Assembly: GCF_913057115.1 (NCBI RefSeq)
Contig: NZ_CAJXNN010000003.1
Coordinates: forward strand, 1 to 64,000
DNA from: an uncultured Roseovarius sp.
GTDB taxonomy: Bacteria > Pseudomonadota > Alphaproteobacteria > Rhodobacterales > Rhodobacteraceae
Direction: 5' to 3'
Length of the DNA stretch: 64,000 nucleotides
A program made the translations under genes and the position numbers. The notes beneath the pieces were generated by a model that saw nothing but the letters and a program-made list of their open reading frames with translations, had not been told where the DNA came from and searched no databases. Positions 1 to 34,561 of the stretch are shown one piece after another. The first letter of the stretch is position 1; every line of letters starts with the position of its first letter.

Positions 1-8
1 TCACCGCG

Positions 9-80
9 CGCCTTGTTAATTCCGGCGGGTGCGGGAAAAAATACCGACGCGATACCGACGTTTTGCCGACGCGATGCTGA
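9..80 (-). repeat. Phased TCGGTA iteron element, copy 1
   Basis: Read on the minus strand, four hexamers related to TCGGTA (TCAGCA, TCGGCA, TCGGTA, TCGGTA) lie at an 11-base period (plus positions 75-80, 64-69, 53-58, 42-47). TTAACA follows 22 bases later (14-19) and then a GGCGCGCG tail. The same architecture recurs at 33952-34026. It lies downstream of rfbA and would point at a minus-strand gene beyond the left edge of the window. The function is not known to me. An activator-binding promoter element is an inference from the helical phasing. Confidence 0.7.
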
Positions 81-127
81 CAGGCACTTTCGTTGTTAAC
101 CAAAGGCTTAGAGGTGATTCGCGCCGT

Positions 128-1012
128 TTAGAAGCGGGCAGGCTTCAACCGCCCTTGCAGGTACCGGCCATAACCGTTCTTGGCGAACATCTCGGCCCGT
201 TCCTCAAGGTCCTTGTCGCTGATCCAGCCCATCTGGTGCGCGATCTCGTCGAGGCAGCCCGTCTGCAAACCTTGCCGCTGTTCCAGCGTCCGCACGAAGT
301 TGCCCGCATCCAGAAGGCTGGCATGGGTTCCGGTATCCAGCCAGGCATAGCCGCGCCCCATGCGTTTGACGTCCAGCGTCCCCTCTTCAAGGTACATCTC
401 CAAAAGGCAGGCGATTTCCAACTCGCCCCGCGCCGACGGCGTGACCTTGCGGGCGCGTTCGGGGGCCTTTTCATCAAGAAAATAAAGCCCCGTCACCGCG
501 TAATTAGAGGGCGGCTCAGCGGGTTTTTCGATGATCTGTTTGGCCTGTCCATCGGCATCGAATTCGACCACGCCATAGCGTTCGGGGTCGGCAACGTGGT
601 AGCCAAAGACCGTTCCGCCGGTGGTTTTCGCGTCGGCACTGGCCAGCAATTCGCTCAACCCGTCGCCGAAAAAAATGTTATCTCCCAAGACCATGGCGCT
701 GGGCGCGCCAGCAAGGAAATCTTCCGCCAGAATATAAGCCTGCGCCAATCCATCGGGTGAGGGCTGCACGATATAGGTCAGGGACAGGCCCCATTGGCTG
801 CCGTCGCCAAGCGTGCGTTTGAATTGGTCTTGGTCCTGCGGCGTGGTGATCATCGCGATCTCGCGGATGCCTGCCAGCATCATGACCGAAAGCGGATAAT
901 AGATCATCGGCTTGTCGTAGATCGGCAAGAGTTGTTTCGACACACCCATGGTGATCGGGTAAAGCCGTGTCCCCGACCCGCCCGCGAGTATAATTCCCTT
1001 GCGCTGGCTCAT
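128..1012 (-). CDS. rfbA: Glucose-1-phosphate thymidylyltransferase (RfbA/RmlA)
   Basis: This cytoplasmic enzyme couples dTTP and glucose-1-phosphate to dTDP-glucose, the first step of dTDP-L-rhamnose synthesis for surface polysaccharides. The 294-residue product has the family length. The nucleotide-binding motif GGSGTRLYP is at residues 11-19, followed by [17 protein letters not shown], then GDNIFFG and YAWLDTGTH in the catalytic region. I chose the ATG at 1012 because a GAGG lies about eight bases upstream and the family N-terminus begins there; a longer upstream reading lacks similarity. rfbB, rfbC and rfbD are not in the window, so partner genes may lie beyond its left edge. The identification is secure. 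Confidence 0.95.
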
Positions 1013-32691: not shown

Positions 32692-33399
32692 TCACTCGGG
32701 AAACGCTGCTGCCAAAGCAATTTCCACCATATCCCCAAAGCTGCTTTCGCGCGTTTGGCTGTCAAGCGCCTCGCCGGTTTGCAGGTGGTCGCTGACCGTG
32801 AGAACGGCCAGGGCCCGCGCGCCGTGACGGGCGGCGAGGGTGTAAAGTTCGGCGGCTTCCATCTCGACGGCCAGCGTGCCGTGGCGGGTCATCTGCTCGG
32901 TCAGGTCGGGGCGTTCGTCATAAAAGGTGTCCGAGGAATAAATGCCGCCCACATGCGGCGCGATTCCGCGCGCCTTGGCCGCTGTGACAGCAGCGTTGAG
33001 CAGGCCCCAATCGGCGCAGGGGGCGAAATTCACCTCGCGCAGGATGGTGCTTGAAGGGGTCGAGATGCTGCTGGCGGTCATGGCGATCACCACATCACGC
33101 AGGGCCACATGCGCCTGCATCGCGCCGCAACTGCCAATGCGGATGAGGGTTTTGACGCCATAATCGCGGATCAATTCATTGGCGTAAATCGAAAGGCTGG
33201 GCATCCCCATGCCGCTGCCTTGAACCGTCACGCGGTTGCCCCGCCATGTGCCGGTATAACCCAGCATCCCCCTGACATCATTCACTAACTCCGGGCGGTC
33301 CAGAAATGTCTGCGCGGCCCATTGGGCGCGCTTGGGATCACCCGGCATCAGCACGGTTTCGGCGATCTGGTCCTGCTTCGCCCCGATATGTACCGTCAT
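32692..33399 (-). CDS. deoD: Purine-nucleoside phosphorylase, DeoD type
   Basis: DeoD cleaves purine (deoxy)nucleosides with phosphate in salvage. The 235-residue hexameric-type enzyme starts [24 protein letters not shown]. It includes RIGSCGAM for phosphate and [28 protein letters not shown] for sugar/base. The ATG overlaps the GNAT stop by four bases (ATGA). Confidence 0.96.
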
Positions 33400-33842
33400 G
33401 GCCGGGCGTATTTGATGAAAGGTGTCAGAATGCCCACGCGGTCATAGAGTTTGCGGGCCTCGGCGTTGAAGTCCTGGGTCAGCCAATAGACTGCCGGGCA
33501 GCCATCGGTATCGGCTTGGGCATAGACCGCCTCGATCAATTTGCGCCCCACGCCGGTGCCGCGTACCGATGGATCGGCGTAGAGGTCTTGCAGGTAGCAG
33601 ACCTTTTCAAGGCGCCAGTTGTGTGGGTGATAGATGTAGTGAACAAGGCCTATGGGGCGTCCATCCTGCGCCGCCAGGAAGCCGCATTGATCGGGATGAT
33701 CGTCCGAGCACAGGCGTTCGAAGGTTGTGTCATATACGGCATCGGAGACACTGGTTTCGTAAAACTCCAGATAGGCCGTCCAAAGGGCGGCCCATTCGGC
33801 GCGGTCGTCCGGGGCGATGGGGCGAATTGTGATCTCGGTCAT
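33396..33842 (-). CDS. GNAT-family N-acetyltransferase
   Basis: The 148-residue protein shows the acetyl-CoA motif [20 protein letters not shown] (Q/R-x-x-G-x-G). It ends in [20 protein letters not shown]. The acceptor cannot be deduced. ATG 33842 is chosen because the family N-terminus [12 protein letters not shown] starts there; an upstream ORF extension has no similarity. It is the first gene of a two-gene transcript with deoD. Confidence 0.85.
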
Positions 33843-33951
33843 GGGGCATCCCGCCTGTGAAGTTTTGCAAAGCGTAAAGCGCCGTGAGGCAGTTTGCCAG
33901 AGGGTCTGCGCGAATCGAGGGTAACTGTCTGAAATCACGAAAAAACCGCTT

Positions 33952-34026
33952 TCGGTATCGCGTCGGTAAAACGTCGGTATTGCGTCGGTGCATTTGCCCC
34001 GGCCCGATCATGTTAACAGGGCGTGC
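33952..34026 (+). repeat. Phased TCGGTA iteron element, copy 2
   Basis: TCGGTA, TCGGTA, TCGGTA and TCGGTG lie at 33952, 33963, 33973 and 33984 (period 10-11). TTAACA follows at 34013-34018, then GGGCGTGCG. Spacing and tail match copy 1 at 9-80. It lies in the 302-base spacer between the divergent GNAT and DUF4168 genes and points at the DUF4168 gene. CATCTGGGCAT (34035-34045) just beyond also occurs at 49747-49757. Confidence 0.75.
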
Positions 34027-34144
34027 GTTGGGCGCATCTGGGCATTTTTCCGCCGTGCCGGTTGCATCCCGCATGCCGACGGGCCACGTGAGGAGAGACG
34101 TCGGGGTATAAAGCTCCGGCATGCCAAGCCAGACGGAGATCATT

Positions 34145-34561
34145 TTGACTTTCAGAACCCCAATCGCCGCCACCCTTGCGGCCCTGTCGCTCAGCTTTGC
34201 CACGCCGGTCCTTGCGCAGGAGACCGAAGCCTCGGAGAGCGCGGCACAAGACACCGCCCAAGAGGCCCTGCCTCAGATTGCCCCGGAAGACGTGACGGAT
34301 AATCAAGTTGAAGATTTCGTGGCGGCCTTCCTTGCCGTGTCGCAAGTCAGGGCCGACTATATGCCTAAGATCGCCGAGGTAGAGGACGAGGAAGCACGCC
34401 AAGCCTTGGTCAATGAGGCCAACAACGCGGTGGTCGCGGCCGTCAACGATGTCACGGACATGGATGCAAAAACCTATGTCGCTATCGGCAAGGCTGCGGA
34501 AACCGACAAGGCGCTTAGCGACAGAATCACCAAGAGAATCGAGGCCGCGCAAAGCGAGTGA
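34145..34561 (+). CDS. Secreted DUF4168-like protein
   Basis: The product is 138 residues from a TTG start, with signal peptide TFRTPIAATLAALSLSFATP, cleavage after VLAQ. The mature domain VTDNQVEDFVAAFLAVSQVRADYMPKI ... resembles DUF4168, a small helical periplasmic domain of unknown function. GGAG six bases before TTG 34145 favours this start; an in-frame ATG at 34121 has no ribosome site and would place eight residues before the signal peptide. It lies downstream of the iteron element, which may control it. Confidence 0.7.
   Translation: MTFRTPIAATLAALSLSFATPVLAQETEASESAAQDTAQEALPQIAPEDVTDNQVEDFVAAFLAVSQVRADYMPKIAEVEDEEARQALVNEANNAVVAAVNDVTDMDAKTYVAIGKAAETDKALSDRITKRIEAAQSE

Follow-up and report, generated by a model that had tools for sequence, protein, structure and literature searches.

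Elements of the REP/BIME type occur in tens to hundreds of extragenic copies with a lineage-specific spelling, and DNA uptake sequence dialects are genome-wide spellings that members of a lineage have in common and that differ from one lineage to another. In the cited part of the work on Escherichia coli ArcA (PMC3798270), direct repeats spaced 11 bp centre to centre were present in 158 out of 176 regions, more than half of the regions had more than two units, the repeats were degenerate and acted at promoters, and lpdA was a target. The Rhodobacter sphaeroides CenR site is described as two half-sites, TGA-N8-TGA, located within 100 bp upstream of the regulated units (PMC9275681, in the part cited), and REP/BIME elements are treated together with RAYT transposases in the cited part of PMC2817692.

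The arrays that we report here, phased at 11 bp and of a kind for which we found no description in the literature, share features with each of these systems. They are direct repeats of about 11 bp with at least two units, as is typical of ArcA sites; they are multi-unit, and lpdA is among their sites. By analogy, this is a resemblance to ArcA sites and not membership, as a location at promoters does not hold for the arrays. Array units are near-invariant with unit-specific identities, in contrast to the degenerate repeats described for ArcA; array-bearing gaps are mostly non-divergent with a spelling that varies by lineage, whereas ArcA is described as acting at promoters. The CenR site, as described, is likewise an OmpR-family direct repeat from the same bacterial family but has two half-sites in place of multi-unit 11-bp arrays. 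Many extragenic copies, tens to hundreds of them with lineage-specific spelling, are shared with REP/BIME elements; by contrast, the array core is non-palindromic, asymmetric and multi-unit. Arrays are also spelled per lineage, as DNA uptake sequences are, although they are far fewer and are 11-bp phased and multi-unit, unlike a single short word.

Two array copies lie in the window, that is, the whole stretch of 64,000 nucleotides analysed. Genes were called with a crude caller trained on the window, which called about 80% of bases coding. The features are as follows.

5 to 120, minus strand: copy 1 long form, truncated by the contig edge (locus L034)
42 to 80, minus strand: copy 1 iteron array, TCAGCA-TCGGCA-TCGGTA-TCGGTA, period 11
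80-75, 69-64, 58-53 and 47-42, minus strand: copy 1 units TCAGCA, TCGGCA, TCGGTA and TCGGTA
120-116, 100-95 and 91-87, minus strand: copy 1 long-form parts on the 5' side, GAATC, GTTAAC and A-run
41-36, 20-14 and 12-5, minus strand: copy 1 long-form parts on the 3' side, T-run, ATTAACA (TTAACA at 19-14) and GGCGCGCG
128 to 1012, minus strand: sugar nucleotidyltransferase (NTP_transferase) gene, neighbour of copy 1 (Pfam PF00483, E=5.6e-73)
33396 to 33842, minus strand: GNAT acetyltransferase gene, neighbour of copy 2 (Pfam PF00583, E=1.4e-18)
33912 to 34027, plus strand: copy 2 long form without GTACG tail (locus L005)
33912-33916, 33921-33925 and 33940-33945, plus strand: copy 2 long-form parts on the 5' side, GAATC, GTAAC and A-run
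33952 to 33990, plus strand: copy 2 iteron array, TCGGTA-TCGGTA-TCGGTA-TCGGTG, period 11
33952, 33963, 33974 and 33985, plus strand: starts of the copy 2 units, TCGGTA (first three) and TCGGTG
34013-34018 and onward to 34027, plus strand: copy 2 long-form parts on the 3' side, TTAACA and GGCGTGCG
34121 to 34561, plus strand: DUF4168 gene, downstream of copy 2 on the shared strand (Pfam PF13767, E=3.4e-8)

The original prediction described copy 1 (9-80) as four TCGGTA-like hexamers with a period of 11 and a TTAACA 22 bp further on, which is what we found, on the minus strand. In both copies TTAACA is followed by a GC block, at 12-5 in copy 1. For copy 2 it gave spacings of 11/10/11 and a gap of 23, which we correct to 11/11/11 and 22 bp; the two window copies thus share identical phase and gap. 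Copy 1 is 76% identical to a 154-bp long copy over 24-122 and has lost its 3' side because contig C3 begins at window base 1; BLAST aligned copy 2 at 73% over positions 1-124 of the same long copy. Copy 1 lies directly beyond the 3' end of the NTP_transferase gene in equal orientation, and copy 2 lies at the 5' side of the GNAT acetyltransferase gene in opposite orientation. Within the window, a two-unit pattern gave 40 matches at three or fewer mismatches (shuffle mean 25.4, largest 38); most of these are chance matches, and the clear evidence is genome-wide.

We scanned the genome from which the window comes (G000, 3.44 Mb; hereafter the own genome) for TCGGTA-N5-TCGGTA-N5-TCGGTA, using the reversed pattern as a control. 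At two or fewer mismatches the pattern gave 126 matches (63+63) vs 0+1 for the reversed pattern, and at three or fewer it gave 70+80 overlapping matches vs 3+2. Merging the listed pattern places with BLAST places yielded at least about 71 array loci, all of which (71) were retrieved and compared in register. With the 154-bp copy as the query, 45 matches were obtained, 40 of them with E<1e-8, and 31 of these 40 extended over at least 131 of the 154 bases. The long form opens with GAATC, followed by a stretch with TAA/GTTAAC and by an A-run; the four units come next, and about 22 bp separate them from GTTAACAGGGCGCGCGGTG, which precedes a GTACG-box tail. Upstream of the units, GANTC was present in 45, GTTAAC in 39 and an A-run in 43 of the 71 own copies. 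Downstream, a TTAAC-like match was present in 46 out of 71 copies; in 41 of those 46 its spacing was identical, with the match starting 49 bp from the first unit of the best three. Conservation begins about 54 bp ahead of that unit in the 48 own copies taken as long, and the remaining copies show little beyond the units themselves. Near 75 arrays of named genera, we counted 22 occurrences of GTTAAC between -50 and -31 and a further 18 between +50 and +69 (expected about 0.1 per 10-bp bin), and GANTC occurred 30 times at -60..-31, a count without a computed baseline.

The tail is special to the own genome, as two or more GTAC were present in the tail of 40 out of 71 own copies and of none of the 77 named-genome copies. 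In the long copies of G000, the GTACG-box tail lies about 10-65 bp beyond TTAACA; by eye, its boxes form an inverted repeat in many copies, with the pairing lost in some. The array core is a direct repeat without an imperfect palindrome or hairpin by eye, and no terminal inverted repeat was seen by eye in the own copies. An Rfam scan of four copies returned zero matches at the array. At one locus (L016:114-191, plus strand), a SAM_alpha riboswitch (RF00521, 65.2 bits) is located upstream of the gene preceding the array copy.

Few arrays lay inside genes: 3 out of 69 loci in the own genome, 3 out of 80 in named genomes, 1 out of 24 in G269 and 4 out of 22 for a second spelling described below. 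Leaving out edge loci without a gap type (12, 15, 7 and 1, respectively), the ratios of convergent to divergent gaps were 17:8, 21:4, 5:2 and 1:2. The own and named sets together gave 38:12, vs 35:81 for other gaps of at least 45 bp within the window and named loci (p=6e-8). Own and named arrays thus avoid promoter-bearing gaps; the small second-spelling set is without convergent-gap bias. In the own and named sets, arrays were frequently located shortly past stop codons or within operons, in either orientation, and a minority of conserved arrays lay at a gene's 5' side, for example at lpdA (immediately upstream of the start) and yajC.

These positions bear on the original prediction, which had placed the arrays beside promoters and read TTAACA as a promoter element. 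Promoter adjacency fails as a rule, given that divergent gaps are depleted and convergent gaps enriched, and TTAACA is at most a candidate -10 element; GTTAAC is present upstream of the units too and, in other genera, on both array sides. Counting the genomic copies and checking them against gene starts, as it had suggested, gave a family of at least about 71 own loci, and the own and named sets showed no enrichment upstream of starts in divergent gaps. It had named two outcomes that would speak against the element, random placement in coding DNA and copies that are unique and unconserved; arrays avoid coding DNA, and relatives have them too, in part at orthologous sites. The 11-bp phasing and the fixed TTAACA distance are most naturally read as it proposed, with a single factor lying along one helix face.

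We considered a neighbour gene as the source of a cognate factor and rejected this candidate. No recurrent gene family beyond small clusters was found among 503 proteins from 183 loci or 486 proteins from 272 loci: the 183-locus set gave only superfamily clusters (16 ABC ATPases and 6 dehydrogenases), and clusters in the 272-locus set had four or fewer members at more than 40% identity, several being orthologous sites. A plasmid iteron origin was rejected because at least 64 sites are dispersed along the single-contig chromosome of G269; a composite array query gave zero matches at E<=1e-5 against 72,556 plasmids. For those at least 64 sites, with the chromosome length set at 3.48 Mb, neither even spacing (CV 0.85 vs 0.97 for random placement, with 13% of simulations equally low) nor strand bias (33 plus and 31 minus, with runs as expected) held. 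Carriage by phage was also rejected: 45 viral stretches matched, of which 43 were by eye other repeats, for the most part GTCGGTACTTG within AT-rich sequence, leaving L235 and L248 as the two that appeared array-like. AT-rich viral contigs such as L220, L229, L237 and L261 bear different 11-bp repeats, GTCGGTACTTG.

Pattern scans detect only the spellings that were tried. Among 295 family genomes, the TCGGTA pattern was found in 34, with more than five matches in 16 (own genome included) and a maximum of 142+169. A scan of named genomes returned at least 110 matching stretches, and 80 titles among the matches listed are what we take to be Rhodobacterales names; other Rhodobacteraceae genera have arrays too. 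The same-genus genome G278 had zero pattern matches, and 400 kb of it also gave zero by PWM and period tests. A period-11 autocorrelation test, which is independent of spelling, found 7 windows scoring at least 22 in 380 kb of G412 (0-1 for other periods) and 0 in 400 kb of G278; the test is of limited sensitivity and misses weaker arrays, having recovered one of the two pattern-scan arrays in 400 kb of G003. The flanks in G278 were too diverged to show clean empty sites. Its lpdA gap, with a period-11 score of 16 and 15 out of 24 unit matches, was excluded from the array count and may hold a decayed array.

The reversed-pattern control itself matched a real second array family in G145 and G067. 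By eye, this second spelling, CGT[A/C]TGG, reads GTATGGTTTGC-GTATGGCTGGC-GTATGGCTCGC-GTATGGCA, with 11-bp units and special ends, and some G067 arrays have five units. An exact scan found at least three matches in each of eight further genomes. Units of both spellings begin with CGT, and the first unit often has an A-run ahead of it (by eye). A core shared by both, CGTnnGG, was rejected as being in the wrong register for TCGGTA, although the scan made with it, which matched in 27 out of 394 genomes, is the one that gave the eight further genomes. A third spelling, GTRCATA, was present at lpdA of G105; a further 400 kb of that genome yielded no other instance, so we regard it as tentative.

To compare sites across genera, we used the genes adjoining arrays in 272 loci, counting Shimia and g211 as one genus; g211 is presumably Shimia, judging from one 100%-identical neighbour protein (L175/L376). 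Gene side and orientation were concordant in 27 out of 39 cross-genus locus pairs (p=8e-9 vs 25%, an expectation that takes side and orientation as each even and independent) and discordant in 12. With side shared, orientation was concordant in 27 out of 31 pairs (p=2e-5). Two of the 27 concordant pairs, L017/L095 and L096/L302, are placed more than 200 bp away from the gene they have in common and may represent separate sites. TCGGTA and CGT[A/C]TGG occupied one site in one orientation at lpdA (L035/L311), yajC (L074/L296) and soeB (L134/L285; also G067), and further two-spelling sites with orientation kept were leuC-leuD (L131/L308) and livG-livF (L292/L381). Pfam backs the names LpdA, MAPEG and YajC, the LeuD domain, and the FeS protein that we interpret as SoeB; the names soeA, leuC, livG, livF, bchY and bchZ are presumptive assignments from sequence.

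Both lpdA and soeB were chosen for study after arrays had been observed there. A recognisable array was present in the lpdA gap of 18 out of 30 genomes, a figure that is not a family-wide rate because 28 of the 30 had been picked as array-bearing (the other two were G278, with none counted, and G003, in which an array was found). Nine of these 18 arrays were spelled TCGGTA, eight CGT[A/C]TGG and one in the tentative third spelling. They are in reverse orientation, and their first unit starts about 23-38 bp ahead of the chosen start codon; four arrays had only three good units, and the registers of three-unit arrays were corrected by eye for these distances. A period-11 score of at least 20 was likewise obtained in 18 out of 30 genomes, vs 0 out of 30 for periods 9, 10, 12, 13 and 14; the array tally does not count G242 (score at least 20) and does count G116 (score 18). 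In a first survey of soeB, an array was present in 7 out of 26 resolved gaps, all in one orientation, with 4 out of 30 loci unresolved. The array-bearing genomes did not form one clade in a SoeB tree (5 changes; 62 out of 500 shuffles equally low; support mostly weak).

Within the genus of G210, we obtained the soeB locus from 22 out of 25 genomes. The soeA-soeB gap held an array in 17 out of 22, and in the other 5 the two genes abut or overlap. Other genera also have abutting or overlapping genes (by eye), which makes an insertion, afterwards retained, the most likely origin of the array. In some species, AAAATGA-like sequence flanks it on both sides, which could be a target duplication or merely the required stop and start; as a stop for soeA and a start for soeB must be present in any case, the flanks are not proof of duplication. 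Counts of the TCGGTA pattern across this genus ranged from 0 to 186. Among the species with empty gaps, G417, G397 and G416 had 0-1 matches, and G394 and G409 had 117 and 101; being array-rich yet without a soeB array, the last two indicate that sites come and go. The G403 lineage has, by eye, the template TCGGTA-TCGGTA-TCTGTA/T-GAGGTG. In 380 kb of G412, which has 6 pattern matches, we found a slightly respelled array at four loci orthologous to G403 loci, so the range of counts partly reflects spelling drift and not absence. One more G403 locus, L415, matched G412 at just two places with 67% identity; we treated these as paralogous and excluded the locus. Across the four pairs, core differences numbered 16 out of 124 vs 11 out of 36 in spacers, which leans towards constraint, although with so few differences this is weak evidence for selection. 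Some soeA-soeB and lpdA gaps (for example L345, L346, L350, L449 and L451) contain a hairpin-like repeat, AAATACTCCGGGGGAG...GGGGGCAGCGCCCCC, stacked next to the array or standing in its place.

We thus observed a defined architecture, a high copy number, an intergenic position and a convergent-gap bias (in the two large sets), together with orthologous retention, differing spellings at shared sites and one likely insertion. We think it probable that the arrays are docking sites of one protein, with the spelling co-evolving with its specificity. Each array would carry the protein's DNA-binding units head to tail, three to five of them and in most cases four, one per helical turn and often beside an A-run, and in the long form the outer GTTAAC (and GANTC) would serve as additional contacts. 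Protein binding of this head-to-tail kind would have its nearest known mechanism, by analogy, in OmpR/PhoB-type response regulators such as ArcA. A chromosome would carry tens to about a hundred such sites, intergenic and mostly away from promoters, and the most likely role would be global chromosome occupancy (organisation or broad control) rather than one pathway. New sites would arise by insertion into gaps, and many would then be inherited with place and orientation kept. The recognition sequence would drift or switch between lineages, and because a genome's sites would follow the protein's changing recognition, orthologous sites would come to differ in spelling. Templates that are specific to each unit and vary by lineage point to either end effects within an oligomer or separate modules for reading the units. 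A bolder form, in which Rhodobacteraceae have chromosome-wide docking by an undescribed multi-unit protein whose code switched at least once with the arrays respelled in step, is possible but rather doubtful; here, the unit-by-unit templates suggest that different DNA-binding modules read the units.

Several observations sit uneasily with docking sites. The arrays are patchy, with more than five matches in only 16 out of 295 family genomes and none in the same-genus G278; the near-gapless composite copies and genome-specific tail look like duplicated DNA; the array-rich G394 and G409 are without a soeB array; the second-spelling set has no convergent-gap bias and 4 out of 22 loci inside genes; 12 out of 39 locus pairs are discordant; and the neighbour genes yield no recurrent family beyond clusters of four at more than 40% identity. 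Part of this would follow if the arrays were dispersed repeats of a selfish or neutral kind, REP/BIME- or MITE-like, copied into gaps by a transposase, with the spellings as subfamilies replacing one another. Such a repeat would be intergenic and patchy, would leave near-gapless copies of about 150 bp and a genome-specific tail as in G000, and would fit the empty soeA-soeB gaps (5 out of 22, vs 17 with an array), the AAAATGA-like flanks in some of them and the counts of 0 to 186 within one genus. However, the core has no palindrome, the flanks can be explained as the soeA stop and soeB start, low counts are partly drift (G412, with arrays at four orthologous loci), side and orientation are kept across genera (27 out of 39 pairs), and spelling changes at shared sites. 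We consider such a repeat, the main rival to docking sites, rather unlikely; if it is one, it is of a non-palindromic kind for which we found no description.

Operators of an ordinary transcription factor acting at promoters, for example an ArcA-like global regulator, appear improbable. E. coli ArcA, in the cited part of PMC3798270, also has 11-bp direct repeats, often with more than two units, and lpdA as a target, and the first unit at lpdA lies close upstream of the chosen start codon (about 23-38 bp), but divergent gaps are depleted in the own and named sets, many sites lie shortly past stop codons, and no neighbour gene recurs. An RNA-level element, either a terminator or a processed leader, is very improbable: the convergent-gap bias and the GTACG-box inverted repeat in many long G000 copies (by eye) would suit it, whereas arrays occur in both orientations relative to genes, the four copies scanned gave no Rfam match at the array, and the GTACG pairing is not kept in every copy (by eye).

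It is a long-standing puzzle of regulatory evolution that the code of a DNA-binding protein can change when dozens of sites have to be kept; if orthologous array sites respell together, they would be a natural record of such a change. The arrays are also ready bait for the protein, with matched species with and without arrays (G000 vs G278) available and species with different spellings usable as controls.

Other short elements were seen near some arrays. At L006, L012, L013 and L023, another repeat, GCGCGGAATCAAGG...GGCCCGCCGCGC, lies a few hundred bp beyond the arrays; in L006 and L023 it is close to the contig end and may be a cause of assembly breaks. At L011, L012, L027, L028 and L048, the short motif CTCATCAGCCCTTGCGGGCTTCTTCGCG is present downstream of the array copy.
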